Positions 3,335-50,361 of a stretch of 64,000 bases of DNA are shown here, piece after piece. Positions within the stretch are counted from its first letter, which is position 1, and the number at the start of each line of letters is the position of its first letter. The translations under genes were made by a program, and so were the position numbers. Location: NCBI RefSeq assembly GCF_019693215.1, contig NZ_CP081183.1, positions 809,226 through 873,225 on the forward strand. Direction: 5' to 3'. Below the pieces are notes generated by a model, which saw only the letters and a list, made by a program, of their open reading frames with translations, did not search any database and was not told where the DNA came from. Source of the stretch: Salinarchaeum sp. IM2453 (lineage in GTDB: Archaea > Halobacteriota > Halobacteria > Halobacteriales > Salinarchaeaceae).

Positions 3335-3403
3335 ACGGGAATGTGCGTATGGGGAGAACAAAGTAATGTCGATTTTTAGCTTCTTCTAAGTTAGCCCTTA
3401 TCA

Positions 3404-3510
3404 GTAGTTGAAAACACAGTTTTATTATTCAACACGAGTCATGTGATAATGGTGTATCACGGGTTGTTACCGGATCACCACTGAATAAAGAAATCGTATT
3501 ATCAACAACT
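3404..3510. repeat. Family D element, 107 bp with 30-bp inverted ends
   Basis: The right arm (3481-3510, starting CTGAATAAAGAAATCG) and left arm (3404-3433, ending TTTTATTATTCAA) are inverted copies matching at about 23 of 30 positions. The same arm bounds the 515-bp element at 40111-40625 and occurs singly at 49895-49924. The internal 47 bp contain no gene. It is a MITE-like structure between fni and pus10; no target duplication was found by eye. Confidence 0.6.
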
Positions 3511-3554
3511 GTTATCGTTAAGATGCTATACACGGGGCCGATTGATGGAGTAGT

Positions 3555-40040: not shown

Positions 40041-40140
40041 GTGTATCACCACAACCGATAAGAAAAAGAAACCTCGGATCGGTGATCGCTGGAGTAGGTA
40101 GTTCGTTATCAGTTGTTGCAAATACGGTTTCTTTATTCAG

Positions 40141-40172
40141 TGTGAAGTACCCCGCGCACGGTGGCGCGGGGC
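40141..40172 (-). repeat. IS605-type right-end hairpin inside family D element
   Basis: On the minus strand GCCCCGCGCCACCGTGCGCG folds as a strong hairpin and is followed by GGGTACTTCAC, the terminal tail seen at other IS605-like right ends here. It directly abuts the family-D left arm. Confidence 0.65.
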
Positions 40173-40180
40173 GTCTGTGT

Positions 40181-40501
40181 TTAGTCCTGCACTGCTGACG
40201 CAACGGACTTTAATTCCTCTCGCGCTCCCATCCTTGGTTGCGCCGACGTTCCGTGTCGGTGAATACCCGAACACAAATCGTGTCCGTGAGAGTCGGAGCC
40301 TCCACCAGCCCCCGATGCCGCCCGTCTCACCGTCCGAGCTCGTGGAAGGGTTTCGAGAGGCGGCACAGTTCCATACTGTTCGTCTAACCACTCCTGCACA
40401 ACGCATACCGCCGCCTTCCGATCAGCGTGATCTCCGAGTCGGCAGTCACTCGAAGTACGGTTTTGGTGAACTACGAGTGAAGCCTGTCGAGCCCCGCCCA
40501 A
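40181..40501 (-). pseudogene. Possible TnpB C-terminal remnant
   Basis: The minus-strand frame reads DCRLGDHADRKAAVCVVQEW, then LDEQYG and a Gly/Ser-rich tail (RRAASGAGGGSD). GDHADRKAA resembles the last RuvC-like Asp block of TnpB, and the terminal hairpin downstream supports this. The zinc ribbon is not convincing, and the N-terminal two thirds are gone. Confidence 0.45.
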
Positions 40502-40626
40502 ATCAGTGTCAGGACTCAGAGGAAAAGACGAAGGTCACCGGGGAAGATAACTCATGCGAGACGGAAGAATCGGCACGAAAAAATCACGCCGCAGACTGAA
40601 TAAAGGAATCGTATCTGCAACAACTG

Positions 40627-42342
40627 TTATTGATGGGCGAAGTATGCGATTGGATCTTGATCTTGCTGATCGATTCGAACGAACCCAACACGCTCAAATT
40701 GAATAATAGTGTCAGGAAGAAGGTCGCTTACAGCGGGTTCTGCGTAACCTTGTACATCTCCGCTTGGCGTACGGCAGCGCATATTGATGCTGTCATCATC
40801 AGGAACCCAGTGAATCACAGGGACATCTTCCTCTCGAACAGCGGAGATATCATCGCCGGTAGTAACAAACTGATCACCATCATATCGAACACAGCCGAGC
40901 CCTTTAAGCCAGACTCGAGTATCAGGTTCAGGCATATCATCTGGTTCAATTAAAACAGCATCGGTGATGGGGATCGATCGCGAACCTCGGTCTGGGTAAT
41001 CGGGATGCAACGGTGGAGAGGCCGTTGAGGGGGTATCTCCAGTGAGTGGTATGCTCGTAGGGTTCCTGACGAAAAAGTACCGGTCTGCCTCCTTATCAAT
41101 TCGTTCTCGATTGGCCGAGTAAACAGAGCTCATTGATAAGTCAACATTGGATGTTGATGTTCCCAGCTCAACCATCGCATCGACGATAGCATCACCTTTG
41201 ATACCGCGGCGGCGGAGACTGGCGAGAGTCGGGGCGCGAGGGTCATCCCAACCGTCAAGTTCGCCATTGTTTATCATTTCAGCAATACTGGATGTCGACA
41301 TTGGAACATCGTATCCGTCAATCTGAACGTGTCCCCAGTGGACAACTTCTGGGTACTCCCAGTCAAAGTAGTCATAAACAAATCTCTGGCGTTTAGCAGA
41401 GTCCTGCAGGTCGATGCCACGGATAATATGTGTGATGCCGATCTCATGATCATCAATTCCAGACTGGAAGTCCAGCATCGGCCAGCACCGATATTCAGCA
41501 GCGTCATCACGAGGATGAGGAGTATCAATCATTCGGAATCCAACCCAATCACGGAGGGCAGGGTTTTTGTGTTTAATATCGGTTTTTATCCGAAGAACCA
41601 TCTCTCCCGAGTCATATTCACCGCTGATCATTTGCTCGAATTCATGTTCGACGGTCTCTACTGGTTTATCACGGTGAGGGCATGGTTTTCCGTTGTTTTT
41701 GAGTTGGGAGAACTCATCAGCGGGACACGAGCATGTGTAGGCGCCTCCTTTTTCAATTAACTCACGAGCATAGTCATAGTAGAGTTCAAGTCGATCACTT
41801 GCTTTGTATACTGCATTAGGATCAAACCCGAGGTATGAAACATCGTCTAAGATAGCATCATACGCATCTAAGTCCGGACGTTTTGTTTCGGGGTCAGTAT
41901 CATCAAATCGAACACAGAACCAGCCGTCATATCGCTGTTTATACGTGCCAATGACGGCAGGCATACGAGCGTGGCCAAGATGCCACGGACCATTAGGGTT
42001 TGGAGCGCACCGCATTCGAACTTCATCATATTGATCCACATTTGGAAGCTCAGGGAGAGGATGCTCATCTTGTTCATCAGACGCTTCAATATCGGCAAGG
42101 GCTTCAGAATCAAGATCGGCCAATTGCTCACGACGCTCTTCGTGAGACATTCCAGCGATATCAGAGACAATTGGGCCTGCAATCTGTGGGATTTCATCTC
42201 CATGCTCACGGAATTTGGGATGATCCTGCATGAGCGGACCCATAATTGCGCCCACATTTGGCTCACTTTCATGTTTGACAGCGTTAATCAGCGCATGCCG
42301 TTTGACCGCACGCTTAATCTGATCACGAAGTTCAGAGTCCAT
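40627..42342 (-). CDS. gltX: Glutamyl-tRNA synthetase (archaeal, non-discriminating type likely)
   Basis: It charges tRNA-Glu (and in archaea usually tRNA-Gln, for later amidation). After an alpha-helical N-terminal domain of about 105 residues, the HIGH-equivalent is APNPNGPWHLGHARMP near residue 112. The zinc region is CSCPADEFSQL...CPHRD near 200, the KMSKS-equivalent VPMSTSSIAEMI near 350, and the C-terminal beta-barrels follow. Length 571 is normal. The stop is directly after the right arm of the family-D element. Confidence 0.96.
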   Translation of the reverse strand: MDSELRDQIKRAVKRHALINAVKHESEPNVGAIMGPLMQDHPKFREHGDEIPQIAGPIVSDIAGMSHEERREQLADLDSEALADIEASDEQDEHPLPELPNVDQYDEVRMRCAPNPNGPWHLGHARMPAVIGTYKQRYDGWFCVRFDDTDPETKRPDLDAYDAILDDVSYLGFDPNAVYKASDRLELYYDYARELIEKGGAYTCSCPADEFSQLKNNGKPCPHRDKPVETVEHEFEQMISGEYDSGEMVLRIKTDIKHKNPALRDWVGFRMIDTPHPRDDAAEYRCWPMLDFQSGIDDHEIGITHIIRGIDLQDSAKRQRFVYDYFDWEYPEVVHWGHVQIDGYDVPMSTSSIAEMINNGELDGWDDPRAPTLASLRRRGIKGDAIVDAMVELGTSTSNVDLSMSSVYSANRERIDKEADRYFFVRNPTSIPLTGDTPSTASPPLHPDYPDRGSRSIPITDAVLIEPDDMPEPDTRVWLKGLGCVRYDGDQFVTTGDDISAVREEDVPVIHWVPDDDSINMRCRTPSGDVQGYAEPAVSDLLPDTIIQFERVGFVRIDQQDQDPIAYFAHQ

Positions 42343-42451
42343 TACATGCTGTTATGAGACCCGGTTTGAACTAGTTTACGAGAAACAAAAAGAGACAATC
42401 AGAATAAATGGTATCAAAACAACAAACGATCCTGAGAACAAACTACAAGGT

Positions 42452-49817: not shown

Positions 49818-49894
49818 GACTAGAATAAACAGCGGCATCCATATATCAATGACGAGTCAATAAACTATTTCACTCAATTTCCCTGACTCATGAC

Positions 49895-49924
49895 AGTTGT
49901 TGATAATGCGATCTCTTTATTCAG
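49895..49924 (+). repeat. Family D terminal repeat, solo
   Basis: AGTTGTTGATAATGCGATCT followed by CTTTATTCAG matches the family-D arms. No second arm was found nearby. It lies about 80 bp upstream of the hisB start. Confidence 0.5.
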
Positions 49925-50001
49925 TTCAGAACGCGCAACAAACCCGTTCGATATGCAACTGCGTATCGAATAGTGAATAGCATATTTGTATTTTTAAGTT
50001 C

Positions 50002-50361
50002 TACAGGCTACGTTCCCGTCCTCAAGGAGCGAGTAGGGCGGGGATACAGCCGTCACTCAGCCGCATCAAACCATTCAACAAATTGATACCAGACATTGAA
50101 TTGTGACGGGCTTTACTCATGAGACTGGCTTCGGGTGAGATCATAACCACAGTCAGACTCCATCTTGCCGTCACCATCGAGTAGGGTTGAGACAATCCAA
50201 AGCAACGCCTGCGGAGACTGGCACCGCTGTGAGCCTGTCCCAGCGCAGGATAGTGCTTGGAAGTGCTGTCGTGGAACCAGAAACTCCGGTCCGAAAGGAG
50301 AAAGTCCGCCCTCAACAAAGCGAGGGCGCAGCCCGAGCGGAGTAGAGCGGGGTAAGTTCAC
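50002..50361 (+). mobile_element. Family C long element, second TnpB-deleted copy
   Basis: It has the same structure and almost the same length as 15682-16042: left end TACAGGCTACGTTCCC, an inverted CCGTCAC/GTGACGG pair, the last 55 TnpB codons (50181-50345, VGLRQSKATPAETG), then the right end GAGCGGGGTAAGTTCAC. It is preceded by TTTTTAAGTT. It is inserted between hisA and hisB and may separate a former operon. Confidence 0.75.
50181..50345 (+). pseudogene. TnpB C-terminal tail (55 codons), second copy
   Basis: It reads VGLRQSKATPAETGTAV, then SAVVEPETPVRKE and ends ARAE-TAG, parallel to 15862-16026. It has the same number of codons, with many third-position and some amino-acid differences, so the two copies are not recent duplicates. 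Confidence 0.7.

Follow-up and report, generated by a model that had tools for sequence, protein, structure and literature searches.

In a 64,000-nucleotide stretch of DNA from Salinarchaeum sp. IM2453 (hereafter the window), similar inverted arms enclose inserts described as unrelated, which raises the question of what kind of element has such ends. The original prediction offered a family of MITEs that had captured an IS605-like remnant or a palindromic site into which other elements had inserted time and again, and considered a correspondence to the palindrome-associated elements (PATEs) of Haloquadratum. According to our analysis, the window elements are very probably MITE-like and non-autonomous, and descend from a haloarchaeal DNA transposon that carries HRAMP (haloarchaeal RAMP). 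HRAMP is an array-less derivative of type III CRISPR systems that occurs in many haloarchaea and whose mechanism two reviews give as unknown (PMC8730458, PMC12669027).

Inverted-repeat elements in the window

The predicted arms around the inserts proved real: they are 38 nt long (40107-40144 and 40592-40629) and 87% complementary, and the arm pattern has four matches in the window (at 3481 and 40596 on the minus strand, at 40110 and 49894 on the plus strand), as compared to a mean of 0.00 in 100 shuffles. They delimit two elements with terminal inverted repeats (TIRs) of about 31 bp and an exact TTAT on each side (Table 1), which measure 517 bp (40110-40626) and 110 bp, not 515 and 107 bp as first estimated. 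The "solo arm" reported at 49895 turned out to be the left TIR of a decayed copy, which aligns end to end with a second decayed short copy (L035:6273-6381); at neither of these two could a duplication be recognised.

Table 1. Features of the TIR elements in the window (positions refer to the window)
Feature	Position	Strand	Basis or remark
Target duplication, left copy (TTAT), 517-bp element	40106..40109		Flank comparison
Left TIR of 517-bp element, 31 bp	40110..40140	+	Arm pattern, inverted-arm search
3' end of IS1341-type tnpB element	40134..40433	-	97.7% identity over 300 bp to C1:158730-159029
C-terminal remnant of cas5-like (Cmr3-like RAMP) gene, motif GSHSKYGFGELRVKP	40432..40595	+	Alignment to Halosimplex pelagicum L231
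Right (cas5-side) TIR of 517-bp element	40596..40626	-	Arm pattern, inverted-arm search
Target duplication, right copy (TTAT), 517-bp element	40627..40630		Holds stop codon of 574-aa ORF 40627-42351 (-)
110-bp MITE-like copy, TIR to TIR	3402..3511	+	TTAT on both sides; L008 99%, L010 95%
Decayed copy, ~110 bp	49894..50003	+	Left TIR 49894-49924; right end degenerate; no duplication seen

Judged by its alignments, the 517-bp element is a fusion of a putative tnpB 3' end with the C-terminus of a cas5-like gene and the right TIR. The cas5 part together with the TIR (40432-40626, 195 bp) shares 88.7% identity with a larger element from Halosimplex pelagicum (L231) at the cas5 end of the latter, and its motif GSHSKYGFGELRVKP is presumably the glycine-rich loop of RAMP proteins. 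Because a search with a Natrinema TnpB gave no match in the 517-bp copy itself, the tnpB assignment rests on the second copy at C1:158730-159029, which a tnpB-like ORF of 463 aa overlaps with its end (tblastn 2e-5). The interior had been read as a TnpB-like remnant, which holds for 40134-40433 and not for the rest. Likewise, the idea of MITEs with a captured IS605-like remnant came close, in that the elements have TIRs and target duplications, are non-autonomous and in one case include an IS1341-type tnpB end; it missed the cas5 part. Transposase queries gave no match inside the 517-bp copy, and the 110-bp copy is too small to encode a transposase.

Copies elsewhere in the host genome

The proposed genome-wide search with the arm gave 22 matches in the 2.66-Mb host genome when up to three mismatches were allowed, and none with the reversed control. 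Paired arms are not confined to the window: ten inward-facing pairs were measured, eight with exact 4-bp duplications and two with duplications that differ by one mismatch, with a central TA. An eleventh pair (L025) faces outward, and for 8 of the 22 arms the stretches fetched contain no partner that faces inward. The 110-bp copy is repeated at two different sites (L008, 99%; L010, 95%), with TTAT/ATAA duplications at all three such copies, including that at 3402 in the window. Deletion derivatives of intermediate length retain parts of the cas5-like gene; all five host copies of 243–486 bp that were examined contain such remnants (L027, L028 twice, L029 and L034).

The single complete host copy without a transposase (L023, C1:1485708-1489247, 3,540 bp) retains a TIR at each end, is flanked by a TTAT duplication and holds three genes with open frames, namely a cas5-like gene, a middle gene and a cas7-like gene; the stop codon of a CCA-adding enzyme gene directly adjoins its end. 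A search for the transposase in the host, in which all 17 candidates were scored, revealed one fragment with 77% identity (query positions 266–451; C1:161088-161645), and the remaining nine matches have 37% identity or less. As the host genome has only a transposase fragment, its copies are either mobilised in trans or immobile; the transposase would thus act in trans, if at all. The short copies arose by internal deletions, as their shared ends show. They agree with MITEs in that they are short, encode no transposase, share TIRs with a transposase-bearing parent and are flanked by target duplications, and nothing essential sets them apart; what is peculiar here is the unusual parent element.

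The suggested correspondence to PATEs of Haloquadratum was not supported. According to PMC3119063, PATEs of Haloquadratum walsbyi have no TIRs and make no duplications, while SMR-A (represented by HqIRS42, HqIRS43 and HqIRS55) is a repeat of about 110 bp with prominent TIRs and, again, no target duplication, which inserts into palindromes close to the ends of PATEs or IS605-type elements. The window elements are also short repeats in a low-GC haloarchaeon, and the 110-bp copies do resemble SMR-A in length and in the possession of TIRs. However, the TIRs of 31–38 nt and the TTAT duplications in the window separate them from PATEs, and the 4-bp duplications of the copies at 3402 in the window, L008 and L010 separate them from SMR-A as it is described. 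We therefore consider it very unlikely that the window elements are PATEs or SMR-A.

A complete transposon with HRAMP genes in other haloarchaea

The arm is present (with at most two mismatches) in 90 of 382 haloarchaeal genomes. The complete relatives of the window elements are 5.8–7.3 kb long and bounded by TIRs of about 31 bp (consensus CAGTTGTTGNNNATACGNTTTCTTTATTCAG). The gene for an ISH3-like DDE transposase lies near one TIR, and genes for Cas7-, Cas10- and Cas5-like proteins adjoin the opposite one. The arms of the window elements match the TIRs of five larger elements that carry HRAMP and, at the opposite end, encode a DDE transposase (L069, L070, L072, L073 and L077); two further HRAMP elements (L225 and L227) have diverged transposases. 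HRAMP and transposase together with both TIRs and exact duplications were found in L069, L070, L072, L077, L225 and L227, in which the open frames of the transposase comprise 597–628 codons (in L069 the frame is shifted near its end). L023, L071 and L298 have HRAMP, both TIRs and exact duplications and no transposase, and in two HRAMP elements with both TIRs the duplication is inexact (two mismatches in L073, one in L208/L295). Carriers of these elements include Haloferax sulfurifontis, Halobacterium salinarum and Natrinema pellirubrum. Defined ends, duplications and named carriers become available for a transposon with HRAMP, and a population of short haloarchaeal repeats finds a probable explanation as its derivatives. 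Our literature search, whose scope did not extend to the primary description of HRAMP, found no mention of HRAMP inside a transposon, so the novelty of this association is provisional.

Two transposases were compared with domain families. Both match DDE_Tnp_1 from Pfam (3e-11 and 3e-9) and are closest to the NCBIfam family ISH3 (NF033541; 4e-33 and 3e-34), albeit with 115 and 118.6 bits, below the curated cut-off of 225 bits. They differ from ISH3 also in length (610–626 aa vs 298 positions in the ISH3 profile), and the elements differ from it in that they carry cargo within 5.8–7.3 kb and make 4-bp NTAN duplications; copies of ISH3 are flanked by 5-bp and those of ISH10 by 8-bp duplications, according to PMC10264941. 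HRAMP accompanies transposase lineages that are only about 35% identical to one another. In L231, the transposase is 93% identical to tnp1, yet Cas7 groups apart from that of the other tnp1 loci (a fork of moderate support), which means that the transposase type and the Cas7 branch do not always agree.

A further variant of the TIR (CAGTTGTTGGCAATGTG...) occurs in L227:5279-12570, together with a transposase of about 34% identity, HRAMP and a TTAC duplication. On plasmid pHS3 of the model strain Halobacterium salinarum R1 (L177 and L314), remnants of cas5 and of the middle gene lie beside a transposase 73% identical to tnp1; these genes are annotated as "hypothetical protein" and "transposase".

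Proteins of the three-gene module

The cas7-like protein was matched to Csm3 in PADLOC (2e-6) and, just below the cut-off, to the RAMPs family in Pfam (5e-4), and the cas5-like protein to Cmr3 in PADLOC (2e-6). The structural model of the latter (pLDDT 70) aligned with chains of the type VII complex (Z 10.2) and with Cmr3 (Z 8.5). The middle protein had no match in the families searched. Its model (pLDDT 90) gave weak Foldseek matches (best E 0.04), the best 36 of which are all Csm or Cmr entries. With VIA-align it was superimposed on Csm1/Cas10 chains with a Z of 12.8 over 226 residues, a value near 13 being one that can be common among helical folds; the 50 matches listed are chains of 478–965 residues that likewise come from Csm or Cmr entries. 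On the Csm1 side the alignment stops near residue 553, which we take to lie before the GGDD palm motif. An R-H-D-x-H-K motif of the middle protein does not vary among 14 sequences, and among 32 it varies little or not at all. By these model comparisons, the third protein of HRAMP (L221:10788-11525 and its homologues in groups A and B, see below) looks like a reduced Cas10-like protein with a conserved HD motif, which could confer nuclease activity. Profiles from three alignments matched PDB sequences at chance level only.

In having diverged Cas5- and Cas7-like RAMPs, a conserved third protein and no array, the module agrees with HRAMP as described in the literature, and it is equated with HRAMP on that description; the resemblance of the third protein to a reduced Cas10 in its predicted structure is added here, and taken with the conserved HD motif it points to a type III complex of minimal size. 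No CRISPR-like repeat-spacer array was found in the three elements tested, and a scan of four loci with Rfam models found no RNA inside the elements and one tRNA outside. A search for HRAMP in viral contigs gave 22 stretches that matched a peptide pattern, none of which was confirmed.

Two groups of HRAMP loci

A scan of the named genomes with a Cas7 alignment gave 90 confirmed stretches, which yielded 79 loci (11 stretches are not among them). We defined group A by a Cas7 identity of at least 68% to L023 (n=42) and group B with n=37; L111 and L112 (Cas7 identity 35% and 27%) were assigned to neither. In the Cas7 tree (41 rows), group A forms one side of a single branch with support 97/94; we do not claim a root, because outgroups gave unreliable long branches.

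The groups differ in their association with the transposon. A TIR arm (PWM score of at least 20) is present in 21 of 42 group A loci, a transposase in 12 and either of them in 24, as compared to 0/37 for each in group B. A looser TIR pattern was found in 29/42 group A and 2/37 group B loci (reversed controls 3 and 5), though this pattern was shaped after some of the loci had been viewed, so the count of 29 is partly post hoc, while that of 24/42 precedes it. Where a recognised arm is present (18 of the 39 loci measured), it begins 19–92 bp after the stop codon of cas5. In 18 of 42 group A loci there is neither an arm at this threshold nor a transposase; several arm-less loci have a degenerate TIR motif after cas5, and L249, L256 and L264 have none there. 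The association may therefore have arisen after group A did, or it may have been lost.

The groups differ also in their nuclease genes. Among loci with enough 3' sequence, an exonuclease gene (presumably of the DEDD type, as named from its motif), an HNH gene or both lie within 6 kb in 35/36 group B loci and in 0/34 of group A. The associated nucleases that form part of the HRAMP description (HNH, PD-(D/E)xK or other) are therefore lacking in group A as far as the exonuclease and HNH proteins of group B and a distance of 6 kb are concerned. In L231 (group A), homologues of both lie 6.6–7.6 kb from cas7, beyond this limit and outside the TIR, and another HNH protein was weakly matched in 2/42 group A loci. 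In contrast to group B, the transposon-borne group A lies within TIRs, lacks these exonuclease and HNH genes and, in complete copies, is accompanied by a DDE transposase.

Target sites and movement

For a survey of target sites we scanned the fetched loci for TIR pairs, discarded those that lack an exact 4-bp duplication and counted each site once. This gave 43 independent pairs, 99 bp to 10 kb apart, of which 42 are flanked by NTAN, although TA makes up 3.2% of the dinucleotides in the flanks. When the nearest arm pairs were taken without the duplication filter (n=55), 41 had exact duplications, seven had one mismatch and seven had more. A logo of the 42 sites showed no strong motif beyond TA.

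Movement is seen in an empty site. When the flanks of a 4,917-bp element on plasmid pHSAL2 of Halobacterium salinarum (L178) are joined, they align to an uninterrupted gene of Halorubrum ezzemoulense in frame and with no gap at the junction (83% identity). The transposase of this element is 91% identical and its cargo is other than HRAMP; an element with HRAMP is located on the same plasmid. An empty site was obtained for this one of three elements tried, and for L223 and L070 no uninterrupted relative was found in 15 and 57 genomes, respectively. In the proposed mechanism, the transposase would recognise the TIRs and insert the element with duplication of 4 bp at NTAN, with catalysis expected from the DDE domain.

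The palindromic site invoked in the original prediction amounts to a fixed regulatory or palindromic motif that other DNA has entered repeatedly. Such a motif might account for the excess of sites located just after a stop codon (6/41 vs 37/1984 control NTAN sites, Fisher p 2e-4) and for TIR-like motifs after cas5 in some group A loci that have no recognisable partner arm. The arms are, however, TIRs with exact 4-bp duplications of varied sequence, copies with 95–99% identity lie at unrelated places, 10 of 41 sites lie inside predicted ORFs, and the empty site contradicts this reading for at least one element, an autonomous relative. We regard a fixed motif as extremely improbable and retain the interpretation of the arms as transposon ends.

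At 40627-40630 in the window and at L023:10249, the insertion lies exactly after the stop codon of a gene and the duplication restores the stop. We did not adopt insertion targeted to stop codons, since 10/41 sites are in predicted ORFs and selection against gene-breaking copies can explain the excess.

Cargo or partner in transposition

That one HRAMP branch resides in a TIR transposon and lacks the nuclease genes found in the other suggests two testable roles, as cargo or as a partner in transposition. To the first we would give an even chance: HRAMP would be a defence module captured by the transposon with no effect on transposition. This agrees with the occurrence of group B HRAMP without TIR or transposase (0/37) and with the other genes found in elements with the same TIRs, such as an annotated metallophosphoesterase (L178) and, judged by eye, genes of metabolism or transport (L181, L189 and L220) and one for an ATPase-like protein (L207). 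On the other hand, one might expect a defence module to retain its nucleases after capture, and group A has none of the exonuclease or HNH genes within 6 kb (0/34), although the HD motif could still act.

The second role recalls CASTs, Tn7-like transposons (with TnsB, TnsC and TniQ) that carry a CRISPR-derived effector module, do not cleave their target and insert at a set distance from it under the direction of a guide RNA. A nuclease-poor HRAMP might cooperate with the DDE transposase, for instance by directing or licensing insertion or by regulating it, and use an RNA guide produced elsewhere; we consider this unlikely. The similarity to CASTs consists in a transposon with a CRISPR-derived effector module from which the usual nucleases are missing: group A lacks the exonuclease and HNH genes carried by 35/36 group B loci, and the absence of these genes from the branch within the transposon would be expected of a complex that binds its target without destroying it, as CASTs do. 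In addition, Cas10-, Cas7- and Cas5-like genes are retained together with the transposase in complete elements, and HRAMP is found with transposase lineages of about 35% identity, with the transposase type and the Cas7 branch sometimes in disagreement (L231). However, the transposase is ISH3-like and not Tn7-like, the module is derived from type III, and no array or guide was found. No TnsC-like ATPase, TniQ or TnsB is among the annotated genes of the two complete elements L179 and L180, several of which are labelled only "hypothetical protein". The restriction of the target logo to TA and the absence of an array from three elements both speak against a guided mechanism. Moreover, an element with the same transposase and without HRAMP has moved, albeit with an HRAMP element present on the same plasmid; because this transposase also moves other cargo (L178), HRAMP is dispensable in cis. 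It is accordingly doubtful that an array-less complex of type III origin and an ISH3-like transposase constitute an archaeal form of RNA-guided or RNA-regulated transposition that arose independently of the Tn7-like CASTs; a transposase beside a stripped-down CRISPR-type set resembles an RNA-guided transposon, and the parallel is one of resemblance only.

Since other cargo has moved, insertion sites lack a guided pattern and the search for a guide found none, we put most weight on cargo or self-regulation. The HRAMP complex would travel with the element, most likely as cargo directed against other mobile elements or as a regulator of the element itself; a role in the choice of insertion sites is possible.

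Other genes in elements with the same TIRs

Elements with the same TIRs and without an intact transposase carry genes of host type, which by eye resemble a cystathionine synthase (L181:8281-10923), an EamA-type transporter (L189:6845-8139), an oxidoreductase (L188:8199-10115) and a PEP synthase (L220:1825-8132). The duplications are exact in L181, L189 and L220 and have one mismatch in L188. It is possible that these non-autonomous elements have captured host genes. Another element (L207:8373-13447, 5,075 bp), with an exact TTAA duplication, contains a remnant of cas5 and encodes a protein of 1,478 aa with a P-loop-like motif recognised by eye, which is possibly a defence cargo.
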